Source of the DNA: Candidatus Aenigmatarchaeota archaeon
Lineage (GTDB): Archaea; Aenigmatarchaeota; Aenigmatarchaeia; GW2011-AR5
Reading direction: 5' to 3'
Assembly: GCA_016193585.1 (NCBI GenBank)
Contig: JACPRW010000003.1
Span: forward strand, 62,001 to 126,000
DNA: 64,000 bases
Of the stretch, positions 45,042 to 50,550 are shown piece after piece; positions within the stretch are counted from its first letter, which is position 1; each line of letters begins with the position of its first letter. Under the pieces are notes generated by a model, which saw nothing but the letters and a program-made list of their open reading frames with translations, was not told the DNA's origin and ran no database searches. The translations under genes were made by a program, and so were the position numbers.

Positions 45042-45233
45042 CTATCCAATATAGCTGTCTTCCGGTGGTATGGCGTCTGCTTGCGCTTCTTTTTGGTCTT
45101 CCTTCTTGCGCCGCTCTTTCTTGATGCGCGCATCGACAGGGCCCAGGTAGCGTGACGTCACTTTCTTTCCCCTGCGTATAGACTCGTAGTAATAGCGTCT
45201 CCCGTTGATGACTTTGATGTGCCTGTTGCCCAT
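45042..45233 (-). CDS. Small conserved basic hypothetical protein
   Basis: MGNRHIKVINGRRYYYESIRRGKKVTSRYLGPVDARIKKERRKK; downstream of polB on the same strand. Confidence 0.7.
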   Translation of the reverse strand: MGNRHIKVINGRRYYYESIRRGKKVTSRYLGPVDARIKKERRKKEDQKEAQADAIPPEDSYIG

Positions 45234-45278
45234 AGCCTAACTTATGCGGTGATGTATTTAAAAAATTTATGAATCCGT

Positions 45279-47966
45279 TCAGTTGCCGATAATTTTTGTT
45301 CCCATCGAACCATGGTAGCTTATAAGAAGGTCCCCGCCGCAGTCGCATGCTCCCGCGAGCGGCATCCGCCGGTAGGATTTGCTGCAGGTTTTGCATACAA
45401 GTCCCTCCCACCCGTTCAGGCTTTGCGGCTGCCTCACGGTGACGTCGATGGTATGCTTCATCTTCCGCTTGGTGCCGGTGAGTATGTCCATGATGTTCGT
45501 CTGCCTGCCGCTGCCGAGTACCTCGCTTCTGCTCACGCCGACGGCGTTGAGAATCCTTTCGATTGGGGGGAGGAGCTGGCTGTAAATATAATACTCCGAA
45601 TCAATGCTGATGTTGTGTTTTCTGACGTACTCGGGGTCTTCTGCGCGCTTCGACAGGAGTTGGTTGCCTTTTATTATGACGAATCCCAGGCGGTCCCCGA
45701 TCTTCACCGGCTCTGAAGGGTTCCTGGTGTTGAGCTTCCGCGCGAGCTCTATGTGCGGCGAGATCCCCTCGTAGCTTTCAAGGCTCCTCGTGATTCCCTT
45801 GACAATCGTCAGCTTTTCAAGCGGGATTTCCCCTTCCTTGAGTTTCTCGAGGACTTCCCTCAGGCTTGTTATAGCTTTCTGTATGTCGCCCTCCTTGAGT
45901 ATTACGTCAATGACGTGTTTTGTCGTTTCCGAGACGAGTGGGCACCAGTCGCGCCGTATGGTTTCTATTCCCTTCATTTCAATGTCGTCCTTCCATACGC
46001 CGCCCTCGAAGACGAATTTCCATCCAGCGTAGCGTTTTTTCGTGAGCACCAGAAACGTCCTGTAAATCTTCTCGAACTCGAGTTCTAGGTATCCCGGTAG
46101 TGCATCGCTTATCTTCCGGGAAATTGTATTCCCGAGTTTGTACGCCTCTTCGGGATTCGTGATGGTGGTCTTCATGAGGAGGCTGTCGGTGTCGCCGTAT
46201 ATGACCTCCACGGGGAAGCTGTCCTCTATCAGCTTTTTCGTCGTTTCGATATTCTGCCTCCCGTACGCTGTTATCGAGTTCGCTACGTCCATCACGTACA
46301 ATCGCGCCCTGACGTAACCGGTGTAACCGTATATCGAGTTCGAGATGTCCTTGAGGGCGAGCTGCCGTGCGTTGAGCATTTTCCGCTTTTCTCCTGTCTC
46401 GCTCTTCATCAGTTTCTTTGCGGCACTGCGGGCATCGAGCAGCTTTGTCAGGACCGACGGCATGATGCCCTCCCGGACTTCCTGCGTGACGAATGACGCG
46501 CCCGACGGGGACGTATGGGACGCGGCTTGTCCGTTCAGTATCAGCGTGTCGGTTGATATGTTGAACGACCTCATGATGCTCGGATACAGGCTGCGGAAAT
46601 CAAGGACAAGTGTGCACCCTTCTGCATGGAGCCCTTTTTTCGGTTCCAGAACCGTCGCTCCTTTGATTCCTATTTTTTCCCGTTCCTTGGTTCTCTGGTT
46701 GACGAGATGCTGGCTTGGTCTGGCCTGCATGACGAAGTTCCGCTTCTTGAATTCGTACATGAGCATCGTTTCCACGCGTGTCGCCTGGCCGCTGAAGCAG
46801 TCCTGGAGCAGCAGCCCCGATATTTTTGACAGCTCAAGGAACTTGTCAAGTAATTCCTTCTTGATGACGAGTTTCAGCGAAAGGTCTGCGTCTTTTCGCG
46901 CATATTCCACCAGATGTGATGTTTCTTCTCTCGCCCCCGCCCATAGTTTTGGTATGTCGCTGTAGACCACGTCAAGTTTCTCCTCGTTGAGCAGTTCCTT
47001 CGCGACTGTGTTGAGGTTGTAACGGTGGAATTTTATCCATGGATCCCGGCGCAGGATTTGGTAAGGATCGACAACCACCCTCCCGGGGAGGCCGCATTCC
47101 TGGAAGAGCCCGATCTTTTTTGCAAATACCGGCTTGTCTTTTACTCTTCCGAATGTCCTTGGCAGGCGGTGGGCGTCCAGCCTGTCGAGTATGTACGGCA
47201 GGTCGAAGGAATTTATGTTGTATCCTGTGACGATATCCGGGTCGTAGGTATCGATGATGGTGAGGAACTCTGCCAGCATTTCCTTTTCGTTCTGGAAGCC
47301 TTTGGTTTCTTTTCCCTGTAGCTGCTTCGCCACCAGGACGAGCGATGTCTGCCCCCGGTACGCCGGCTCGAAAGAGAGCGCTATCATAATGATGGTGTTG
47401 TTTTTCGGGTCCAGCGGCCTTCTCGTGTCTGTGGGGAGGCACTCTATGTCGAGTGCGAGGTATTTCAGCCCTGTGTTTGCTTCGTTCGCTACCGGCGCTA
47501 TGGTTTCGGCATGGTACGCCGGAACCGATACCGTTTTCGTCGGTGCGATGGTGCATTCGGCTTCCACCCAGCCCATGCCGTGGATGTTAAAGTCCACCAT
47601 GAAGCGGTATTTGAACAATATATCTGCCTCGAAGACTTCGTCGCACGATTTGTTTTCTAGGAACGTATCGCGGATGCGCGGGACATCTTGTGGGTTGGTG
47701 AGCGTCAGCTTGAGAAGCGGCGTCGGGGCCTGTTGGTGCCCTATCGGCAGGAATTTCTCTACCTTTTCGGCGCTGACAATCTCCCTGTGCGCCGGCAGTG
47801 CGTCTGCTGTCTTGTCGTTTGGTTTTATGAAGAAGTAGGGGAGGAATTTGTCGTAGAAAACGCAGACGGCGTTTCCGGACGCTGTTTTCCCGAACAGTCT
47901 GATGGTTGGCTTCTTCCCGCCGTTCAGAAAATAATCGACGTCGAGCAGCTGGAAAATCAGTTTCAT
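45279..47966 (-). CDS. polB: B-family DNA polymerase with intact exo and pol motifs and a C-terminal DP2-like zinc ribbon
   Basis: YLALDIECLP, YNINSFD, YARKDADLSL, DFRSLYPSIMRSFN, KDISNSIYGYTGY, YGDTDSLL; C-terminus CKTCSKSYRRMPLAGACDCGG. Confidence 0.95.
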   Translation of the reverse strand: MKLIFQLLDVDYFLNGGKKPTIRLFGKTASGNAVCVFYDKFLPYFFIKPNDKTADALPAHREIVSAEKVEKFLPIGHQQAPTPLLKLTLTNPQDVPRIRDTFLENKSCDEVFEADILFKYRFMVDFNIHGMGWVEAECTIAPTKTVSVPAYHAETIAPVANEANTGLKYLALDIECLPTDTRRPLDPKNNTIIMIALSFEPAYRGQTSLVLVAKQLQGKETKGFQNEKEMLAEFLTIIDTYDPDIVTGYNINSFDLPYILDRLDAHRLPRTFGRVKDKPVFAKKIGLFQECGLPGRVVVDPYQILRRDPWIKFHRYNLNTVAKELLNEEKLDVVYSDIPKLWAGAREETSHLVEYARKDADLSLKLVIKKELLDKFLELSKISGLLLQDCFSGQATRVETMLMYEFKKRNFVMQARPSQHLVNQRTKEREKIGIKGATVLEPKKGLHAEGCTLVLDFRSLYPSIMRSFNISTDTLILNGQAASHTSPSGASFVTQEVREGIMPSVLTKLLDARSAAKKLMKSETGEKRKMLNARQLALKDISNSIYGYTGYVRARLYVMDVANSITAYGRQNIETTKKLIEDSFPVEVIYGDTDSLLMKTTITNPEEAYKLGNTISRKISDALPGYLELEFEKIYRTFLVLTKKRYAGWKFVFEGGVWKDDIEMKGIETIRRDWCPLVSETTKHVIDVILKEGDIQKAITSLREVLEKLKEGEIPLEKLTIVKGITRSLESYEGISPHIELARKLNTRNPSEPVKIGDRLGFVIIKGNQLLSKRAEDPEYVRKHNISIDSEYYIYSQLLPPIERILNAVGVSRSEVLGSGRQTNIMDILTGTKRKMKHTIDVTVRQPQSLNGWEGLVCKTCSKSYRRMPLAGACDCGGDLLISYHGSMGTKIIGN

Positions 47967-49099
47967 ACCTTCACTTCTTTTCCGGTATTTTTAACCGTTT
48001 CCTGGTGCGTTACTGTTGCCTGGAAGATTTCTCTTGACCCGAAGTCGACTATCACCGGTCTGAATGTGCTGAGAAGCGACCCTGAGTTTACGATTGTTAT
48101 TGATTTGTAATTGTAGACGTGCGGCTGGTGTGATTGCCCGTGATGGACGATGTCGGGGACGTCGTCGAGCGTTAGGTAATCCTCGGGGAGTATTGTCGTG
48201 GACCTTCCCATGTATCGTTTCTTCAGTATGTCGGGTGAGAAGTTATGCACCATCAGTACTTTCAGTCCGCCCGCCTCCACGATAGCGGGGTTGGACACAG
48301 AGGTGATGTTTTTGCCGGTGAACGCCCGGGGGAGCTGTGGGTACTCCTCGGCGCGCTCTCCTCCGGGGGAAATGATGACCATCTTGCTTCTGGCGTATGT
48401 GTTGATGAGCGACTCGAGTTTCTGGTAGTCGTCTACCCCGCCTGCAATGAAGAGGTATTGGAAGTCCTGCTGTTCCACCCACCTGAAGAACCGTTCAGTA
48501 TCCTCATTCGGCGCTTCGGTGATGTGCAGGTCCGATACAAAACACCCCTTCCCCCTGCCTGAGGTTGGCTGGCGAAGCGGTATATCCGGATACAGAATCT
48601 GTTTGCCGGCCAGTGTTTTCCCTTCCCACTGCACCCGTGCAGCCACGACGTCGTCAAGCTCTATTTTTTGTTTTTCGTGAAACACAACCTGTATGGTGGT
48701 TGTCATATCCTCGAACTCTATGAGTTGTTTGCCGTCTCGCTCCGCGGCATCCTTGACCATACCTATGATGAAAATCTCCCCGCCTGTCTGTGGTATTTTG
48801 TTCAGGGAAACGAACTCCTTCTGGAGCCTGGTGAGGATGATTCGGGACATCTTTTCATATTTTGATTTGTAGAAGTGCATGAAGTCCTCGGTTGTCACCT
48901 CGGTAGGTTTATGTTCGAGTGATTTGAGTACGCGCGTGCCTGTTGTCTGGACGAAGTCCGATTCATTGAGGACGAGTTTGGTGGTGTGTGGAACCTCGGG
49001 TGAGGTGTTGGCGAGTATTTCAAGCGCTTTTGGTGTTAGTAGTTTGCCTTTTTCGAAGAATTTGAGCACGATTGCATCGTGGTTCATCTCCTCACCCAA
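47963..49099 (-). CDS. DNA polymerase D small subunit (DP1)-like protein with degenerate phosphoesterase site
   Basis: OB-fold region then CFVSDLHI, LFIAGGVDDY, ISPGGERAEEYPQLPRAF, LMVHNFS, DIVHHGQSHQPHVYNYKSITIVNSGSLLSTF. Confidence 0.88.
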   Translation of the reverse strand: MGEEMNHDAIVLKFFEKGKLLTPKALEILANTSPEVPHTTKLVLNESDFVQTTGTRVLKSLEHKPTEVTTEDFMHFYKSKYEKMSRIILTRLQKEFVSLNKIPQTGGEIFIIGMVKDAAERDGKQLIEFEDMTTTIQVVFHEKQKIELDDVVAARVQWEGKTLAGKQILYPDIPLRQPTSGRGKGCFVSDLHITEAPNEDTERFFRWVEQQDFQYLFIAGGVDDYQKLESLINTYARSKMVIISPGGERAEEYPQLPRAFTGKNITSVSNPAIVEAGGLKVLMVHNFSPDILKKRYMGRSTTILPEDYLTLDDVPDIVHHGQSHQPHVYNYKSITIVNSGSLLSTFRPVIVDFGSREIFQATVTHQETVKNTGKEVKV

Positions 49100-50318
49100 A
49101 TTTCGTCACCAATATCTTTCTTGTTTTCTCGCGTACAGGGCCGGATAGGGAAAGGGATATTTCCCTCGTCCTCCCATACCGCCCTTTTGAGATGACACGG
49201 GTCGCTATGACGCCGAGCATGTCGAGTTCGGCTACCAAATCACTTACCCTTCTCTGTGTTAATGGTTTTATATTGGTGGCCGTGCAGATGGTGTTGTAGT
49301 GGTGGAATATATCACCCGAGAGTATCCGCCTGTCAGTCCATTGTGCGTCCTGCTGCTTCTCTGTTTGTGTTATGATGACATGGAGCACGAGTTGTGAATG
49401 TAGTGGTTGTGATTTTATGAGTTCGACTATCCGCTCGAGGTTTATCTTTTCCTCTGCCAAATCCACATGCGTCTCCGTTACGTTGACGTCCCCCATCCGC
49501 TCTGCTATTTCTCCGGCAACGCGGAGCAGGTCCAATGCCCGCCGGGCGTCCCCATGCTCCTGTGCCGCAAGGGCTGCGCACTTGCCAACGGCCTCGTCGA
49601 GTACCACCCCCTCCCCAAAACCGGAGAGCGTGCGTTCAGCCAGGATATCATGGAGTTGTGTGGCGTTGTAGGGTTTGAAAAGTATTTCTTCCTCTCCAAG
49701 TGAAGATTTTACCCGCTGGTCAAGACTGTCCCGGAACGACGCGTTGTTGGTGATGCCGATAATGGTGATTCGGGTATTTTTCAACTCAATATTGATCCGG
49801 GATAGGTTGTAGAGGAACTCGTCGCCTATCTTGTTGATGAGTGTGTCTATTTCATCCAGGATTATGATGAGTGGTTTGTTGGTACTGTCCACCATCTCGA
49901 AAAATCTCCTGTATAAAACGTCTGTTGGCAGCCCTGTGTCAGGAACCCACCCCCCAAGAAGCCGTATGAGTTGTGCGAACAGCCGGTATTCGGTGTCGGC
50001 GACGCGTTTCATTTTACAGTTTATATAGAGTGTTTGTATTTCTTTGTCATTGGCCGCCGCGGCATCTTGTAGTTGTTGGAGGACTGTTTTACAACAGACC
50101 GTCTTGCCGGTGCCACAGGTGCCGTAGACGAAGATGTTGTTGATGGTATACCCCTTGAGCGCTGGAGCCAGGGTAACACTGAGTTGTTGTATCTCTTGTT
50201 CCCGGTGTTTTATTTTTGATGGTATGAAATTTGCGGTGAGTGTGTCTTTGTCTTGGAAGAGTGTTGGTTGTTTGAGATATTGTGAAAAAATTAGATTTTC
50301 CTGTCTACTACCCATCAC
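49092..50318 (-). CDS. cdc6: Orc1/Cdc6 replication initiator
   Basis: FVYGTCGTGKTVCCKTV, LIIILDEIDTL, IGITNNASFRDSLDQRVKSSLGEEEI, HGDARRALDLLRVAGEIAE, winged-helix C-terminus. Confidence 0.95.
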   Translation of the reverse strand: MMGSRQENLIFSQYLKQPTLFQDKDTLTANFIPSKIKHREQEIQQLSVTLAPALKGYTINNIFVYGTCGTGKTVCCKTVLQQLQDAAAANDKEIQTLYINCKMKRVADTEYRLFAQLIRLLGGWVPDTGLPTDVLYRRFFEMVDSTNKPLIIILDEIDTLINKIGDEFLYNLSRINIELKNTRITIIGITNNASFRDSLDQRVKSSLGEEEILFKPYNATQLHDILAERTLSGFGEGVVLDEAVGKCAALAAQEHGDARRALDLLRVAGEIAERMGDVNVTETHVDLAEEKINLERIVELIKSQPLHSQLVLHVIITQTEKQQDAQWTDRRILSGDIFHHYNTICTATNIKPLTQRRVSDLVAELDMLGVIATRVISKGRYGRTREISLSLSGPVREKTRKILVTKFG

Positions 50319-50324
50319 ACCACA

Positions 50325-50550
50325 CCCATCCCCTTATTTCTTTTGGACGGTATATAAACATATCTGCAGTGGAAAGTAAGGTTGGTATTCTATAGGCTTG
50401 ATATGACATACCCCATCGTTTCCTTTGGAGAAGATGTTGTAATGAAAACATATACAGTTACTACATAACACTGTCATAAGAAATGAAACAACGTACGTGT
50501 AGAAATGAAAAATTTCAACACTTCCTGAGGAAAATAGGGGGTGAAGGGAG
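50325..50550. promoter_or_regulatory. Candidate replication origin with ORB-like repeats upstream of orc1/cdc6
   Basis: ORB-like dyads with G-tracts: 50330-50347 (-) tccaaaagaaataagggg; 50411-50431 (-) tctccaaaggaaacgatgggg; 50522-50545 (+) ttcctgaggaaaatagggggtg; weaker cagtggaaagtaagg at 50367. Confidence 0.7.

Follow-up and report, generated by a model that had tools for sequence, protein, structure and literature searches.

A conserved orc1–DP1–polB locus of Aenigmatarchaeota and its possible role as source of a two-subunit family B replicase

Organization of the locus and its conservation in the phylum

The window (the entire stretch of 64,000 nucleotides that was analyzed) belongs to a metagenome-assembled genome (MAG) of 1.17 Mb that is distributed over 10 contigs and 90.75% complete. 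It contains the genes of an Orc1/Cdc6 initiator, a homolog of the PolD small subunit DP1, and a family B DNA polymerase (PolB), which are accompanied by ORB-like elements (Table 1). Most of the 80 named relatives listed carry the title Aenigmatarchaeota, and a few are labelled as Micrarchaeota, Nanoarchaeota, or DPANN; the nearest ones include the GW2011_AR5 lineage. The head-to-tail arrangement of the three genes on the minus strand, which had been predicted from the open reading frames, is borne out by profile matches and coordinates. The overlaps of 4–8 nt that were part of the same prediction are secure only in one case: the 4-nt overlap between the DP1-like gene and polB (47963–47966) is firm, whereas the 8-nt overlap between orc1 and the DP1-like gene (49092–49099) hinges on a TTG start of the latter, and if translation began at the next ATG (49087), the two genes would be separated by 4 nt instead. 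The left edge of the operon, originally placed at 45042, had to be corrected to the end of polB because the region downstream is occupied by a separate ORF of 63 aa. A further 14 loci of family f1 have this ORF next to polB, but it had no match in the other families sampled (tblastn of the relatives' loci) and no Pfam family above the cut-off.

Table 1. Coordinates of the genes, motifs, and repeats at the locus (positions in the window)
Feature	Position	Strand	Description
orc1/cdc6	49092–50318	minus	Initiator, 408 aa; PRK00411 (NCBIfam) E = 5e-139, Cdc6_C E = 9e-24
DP1-like small subunit	47963–49099	minus	378 aa; PRK04036 E = 1e-40
polB	45279–47966	minus	Family B DNA polymerase, 895 aa; PF00136 E = 2e-113, TIGR00592 E = 3e-120
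Zn knuckle tail of PolB	45333–45395	minus	C858-C861-C874-C876, residues 858–878, CKTCSKSYRRMPLAGACDCGG
PIP-like motif of PolB, Q822-TNIMDIL829	45480–45503	minus	Just behind the thumb, ahead of the flexible linker
ORB-like element 1, TCCAAAGGAAACGATGGGG	50411–50429	minus	~110 nt upstream of orc1
ORB-like element 2, TCCAAAAGAAATAAGGGG	about 50329–50347	minus	Direct repeat, 82 nt from element 1
63-aa basic ORF, MGNRHIKVINGRRYYYESIRRGKKVTSRYLGPVD...	45042–45233	minus	Downstream of polB

The ORB-like repeats predicted to lie near the operon are real. Both are located upstream of orc1, and the second is a one-mismatch copy of the first; the two matches in the window compare with 0.05 expected, and two matches were obtained in none of 100 shuffles. 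The ORB core (TCCANANGAAA) is enriched throughout the phylum, with 109 matches in 57 of the 76 orc1-upstream regions of relatives versus 0.7 in shuffled sequences. The proposed location at a replication origin is supported by the presence of orc1 and the ORB-like elements but not by the GC skew, which shows no clear extremum at the locus, neither in the 346-kb contig nor in 20 samples of the single-contig chromosome of genome G096. The orc1-upstream regions also contain a palindrome (TAACANTGTTA), which may be an origin or promoter element; it is present in 50 copies in 44 of the 76 regions versus 14 copies in the remaining ~1.18 Mb of the same loci. The window holds only a variant of this palindrome (TGACAGTGTTATG).

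Gene order was compared in a sample of 121 regions from relatives, which documents that the arrangement is conserved across the phylum and not unique to one assembly. Wherever orc1 and DP1 were both found (85 loci), the two genes share a strand and orc1 comes first. A head-to-tail polB downstream of DP1 is present in 75 of 100 loci, 63 of which have a gap of at most 200 nt; since loci of the same family are not independent, these counts represent conservation rather than independent events. The convergent orientation of polB and DP1 in 21 loci, chiefly in families f28, f30, and f31, implies that co-transcription is not universal. In families f17 and f18, DP1 is still joined to polB, and orc1 was not found beside them. 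The gene set occurs in about 25 families. In the trees of PolB and of DP1 alike, many of these families are monophyletic, and the DP1 tree supports the order that comprises families f1–f6 as a clade. A linkage of cdc6 and DP1 is an established archaeal synteny (PMC2643942), and the operon of Pyrococcus furiosus holds orc1, DP1, and DP2 (PMC4148896), which places PolB in the slot of DP2. One single-contig genome (G120) contains two copies of orc1–DP1 (loci L149 and L150), of which only one is near polB; the Orc1 ORF of the second copy comprises only 163 aa.

The zinc knuckle of PolB and the active site of the DP1-like protein

The exonuclease and polymerase motifs of the window PolB are intact (DIE, NINSFD, YARKD, DFRSLYPSI, and YGDTDS). 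The best fold in the PDB for its AlphaFold model (pLDDT 89) is the catalytic subunit of Pol delta, followed by PolB of Thermococcales. The best profile model is TIGR00592, and the sequence profile gives nearly equal scores to KOD-type PolB (599 bits) and Pol delta (591 bits). Residue Q822, with which the PIP-like motif begins, is conserved in all 101 PolB homologs, and hydrophobic residues are present at positions +3, +6, and +7 in 73 of them (column-based counts); a regular expression for PIP boxes matched only 48 of 103 sequences. Because the PolBs of family f32 terminate at the equivalent place in QxxLxxF-type motifs, the motif of the window PolB is read as a retained PIP box that would putatively bind PCNA. 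At five loci of relatives (L069, L071, L073, L077, and L089), polB encodes proteins of 1309–1390 aa with large insertions; the one in L069 interrupts motif C (YGD/TDS) and has HN at its end, which would be typical of an intein.

The C-terminal tail of PolB, which had been described as DP2-like in the original prediction, indeed matches DP2 profiles and contains a DP1-docking knuckle of the Zn-III type. All four cysteines of the knuckle are present in each of the 100 untruncated homologs outside f32, whereas the six PolBs of f32 that could be read to their end stop at 771–783 aa and lack the tail. Residues 857–887 match the C-terminal zinc region of DP2 (PRK04023, E = 3e-4; TIGR00354, E = 4e-3 to 4e-4), and the match to TIGR00354 is confined to model positions 1015–1047. 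Although such matches are short and individually weak in the source genome (E about 4e-4), they are strong in relatives, with E values as low as 1e-9. The window knuckle (CKTCSKSYRRMPLAGACD-C) and a DP2 segment of Pyrococcus horikoshii (CVKCNTKFRRPPLDGKCPIC) are identical at 9 of 20 positions, and a synthetic peptide from this region of the P. horikoshii protein has been reported to bind DP1 (PMC4187176). In PolD, the OB and phosphoesterase domains of DP1 are separated by an acidic groove that accommodates the knuckle (PMC6355029). Together, the matches show the 20-residue knuckle of PolB to be a sequence homolog of Zn-III of DP2, and the analogy with PolD predicts that it binds the DP1-like protein. 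Not all tails share the RR pair of the docking loop, which was seen in only 59 of 100. In the structural model, the C terminus consists of a low-confidence linker followed by short strands only, with a single C4 motif.

The DP1-like protein is composed of an N-terminal domain, an OB fold, and a phosphoesterase fold. Its AlphaFold model (pLDDT 91) is most similar to PolD DP1, followed by the B-subunits of Pol delta, epsilon, alpha, and zeta. The inactivation of this homolog, already suspected in the original prediction, is confirmed by the retention of only four of the eight catalytic residues, with changes in motif II (D to G), motif III (GNHD to GGER), and motif V (GHxH to GQSH). A full active site (8/8) is present in none of the 88 DP1s tested outside f32 but in all eight DP1s recovered from f32, and the number of catalytic residues left in the decayed DP1s of different genomes ranges from zero to seven. 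The metal ligands decay while several non-catalytic residues stay (D131 in 105/105, E130 in 101/105, R295 in 101/105, and Y331 in 98/105 sequences). The fold and probably the docking surface at the putative groove are under selection, whereas the nuclease is not.

Replicase inventory and the contrast with family f32

The MAG contains PCNA, a single DP1-like gene, and a single polB. The DP2 profile PF03833, which was positive in three control archaea, has no match in the MAG, and TIGR00354 matches nothing except the tail of the window PolB. With one PolB and no DP2, the window PolB is the only candidate for a family B or D replicase in the assembly. The same picture emerges from a survey of 160 genomes of Aenigmatarchaeota, in which PolB was detected in 154 and DP1 in 143 genomes: a full DP2 is encoded by 10 of the 11 genomes of family f32 but by none of the 149 genomes of the other families, including the 39 that are at least 90% complete. 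The incompleteness of MAGs bears on single genomes, not on this phylum-wide pattern. A canonical DP1/DP2 pair elsewhere, which would have spoken against the original prediction, is contradicted by these results, and a DP2 hidden in the genome or the phylum was rejected except in f32. Members of f32 combine the possession of DP2 with an intact active site of DP1 and a tail-less PolB, indicating that the tail, the loss of DP2, and the decay of DP1 go together.

Two observations concern the inventory of individual relatives. Seven genomes (G030, G034, G045, G052, G053, G135, and G145) encode a second PolB of ~820 aa, which is 31–34% identical over a match that does not extend into the Zn tail. 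Relatives of the source genome may therefore divide the work between polymerases differently. In one genome of family f17 (G044; 96% complete), neither PolB nor DP1 was detectable, possibly because of a binning error.

Outside the phylum, the closest cores that the searches detected are those of PolBs from eight viral contigs of IMG/VR (L315–L322), with identities of 34–37%. They reach 769–872 bits against the profile of the tailed PolBs, whereas the chromosomal PolBs of f32 reach only 406–434 bits, in agreement with the suggestion of Kazlauskas et al. (2020; PMC7544198) that the enzyme came from viruses. The viral homologs share a similar core and, in most cases, a PIP-like end with the window PolB but differ in having neither a Zn tail nor a detectable DP1 nearby. 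That the ancestral PolB core was derived from a virus is likely, and the scores are compatible with transfer in either direction.

Interpretation and comparison with known systems

The preferred explanation, with a probability of roughly 0.85, is that the locus encodes the sole replicase of this archaeon, a two-subunit holoenzyme of PolB and the DP1-like protein that would be produced together with the initiator. The absence of DP2, the conserved arrangement of the genes, and the DP2 docking knuckle on PolB support the holoenzyme envisaged in the original prediction, in which the binding of the two subunits is the predicted element. PolB, with its intact motifs, would supply both synthesis and 3′–5′ proofreading, and the conserved PIP-like motif following the thumb would engage PCNA. 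The flexible linker would carry the Zn knuckle, which may dock at the junction of the OB and phosphoesterase domains of the DP1-like protein, as it does in PolD. The latter, whose nuclease site is lost as in the B-subunits of eukaryotes, would then act as a structural or recruitment subunit and possibly link the polymerase to Orc1 at the origin.

The alternative that fares best, although improbable, is that the DP1-like protein serves as an origin factor, an adaptor for initiation or loading that acts with Orc1 and is no longer a polymerase subunit, leaving PolB to function alone. The linkage of orc1 and DP1 (85/85) is tighter than the head-to-tail linkage of DP1 and polB (75/100), polB is convergent in f28, f30, and f31, and an interaction of Cdc6 and DP1 has been proposed for euryarchaea (PMC2643942). 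However, a lone PolB would not need a knuckle, whose cysteines are kept in 100 of 100 homologs but are absent from the f32 PolBs that coexist with DP2, and it is PolB rather than orc1 that stays with DP1 in f17 and f18. A recent lateral acquisition of the operon or a viral insertion in the source genome is very unlikely; despite the high scores of the viral PolBs relative to those of f32, the viral relatives have neither the tail nor a detectable neighboring DP1, and the gene set spans about 25 families with many monophyletic groups in the PolB and DP1 trees, including the supported clade of f1–f6. That DP2 lies in the missing part of the 90.75% complete assembly of 10 contigs and that the locus encodes an accessory polymerase for repair, with a normal PolD elsewhere, can hardly be true, given the lack of DP2 in all 149 genomes outside f32, the positive searches in f32 and the three control archaea, and the decayed active sites in 88 of 88 DP1s.

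For the phylum at large, the PolB:DP1 holoenzyme leads to a broader scenario that is reasonably probable, if less so than the reading of the locus itself: nearly all Aenigmatarchaeota would replicate with a heterodimer of PolB and DP1 that formed in situ when a probably viral-type PolB, equipped with no more than the 20-residue knuckle of DP2, entered the DP2 slot of an orc1–DP1–DP2 operon, and f32 would preserve the PolD state. In the ancestor of most Aenigmatarchaeota, a virus-related PolB may have gained the knuckle of DP2 and taken its place beside DP1; DP2 would have been lost and the nuclease of DP1 would have decayed, with the order of events being unrooted. If this scenario is true, the phylum would represent a natural version, independent or ancestral, of the switch from PolD to a eukaryotic-type replicase, in which intermediate stages of DP1 decay (zero to seven of eight residues) are still visible.

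The loss of DP2 in most Aenigmarchaeota, their inactive DP1, and the PolB group B6-aenigma1 have been described by Kazlauskas et al. (2020), who proposed that DP2 was replaced by B6-aenigma1 PolB (PMC7544198). The window PolB shares with this group the phylum, a single C4 motif most similar to Zn-III of DP2, the absence of DP2, and the inactive DP1. The core of B6-aenigma1 is placed in the Delta-like clade of PolBs; for the window PolB, the best fold points to Pol delta, and KOD-type PolB and Pol delta have nearly equal profile scores. The enzyme pair is in substance the same and the idea is not new; new are the operon in the DP2 slot, the contrast with f32, the match to the DP1-binding peptide, the PIP-like motif, the ORB elements, and the phylum-wide counts. 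The words operon, gene neighborhood, and PCNA are absent from the main text of PMC7544198, and in the part of the literature that was searched, no later work on the pair of PolB and inactive DP1 was found.

The locus resembles PolD in its DP1 homolog, its gene order, and the docking knuckle (CxxC...RRxPLxGxC.C), which here resides on PolB instead of DP2. It differs from PolD in that the catalytic subunit is a family B enzyme rather than the two-barrel DP2, which is missing from the genome together with its helical bundle, and in that proofreading resides in PolB, with DP1 being inactive. With the eukaryotic Pol delta, epsilon, and alpha, it has in common the combination of a PolB catalytic subunit with an inactivated B-subunit of the DP1 family. 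In the eukaryotic enzymes, the B-subunit is bound by the C terminus of the A-subunit, and here the C-terminal metal knuckle would be expected to make the contact. The term eukaryote-like, used in the original prediction, applies to this overall architecture but not to the details of the tail: eukaryotic holoenzymes possess a CysA/CysB pair and a helical bundle, whereas the window PolB has a flexible linker that ends in one C4 knuckle, with no helical bundle, no second metal site, and no Fe-S site. No further subunits were found.

Eukaryotic replicases resemble a PolB core joined to remnants of PolD. Living Aenigmatarchaeota show the same combination of PolB and PolD remnants, and PolD itself persists in one related family. 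This raises the questions of whether moving one short zinc knuckle is enough for PolB to take over DP1 and whether the nuclease of DP1 decayed only after the transfer of the knuckle, for which the survey supplies defined sequences that allow a direct test.
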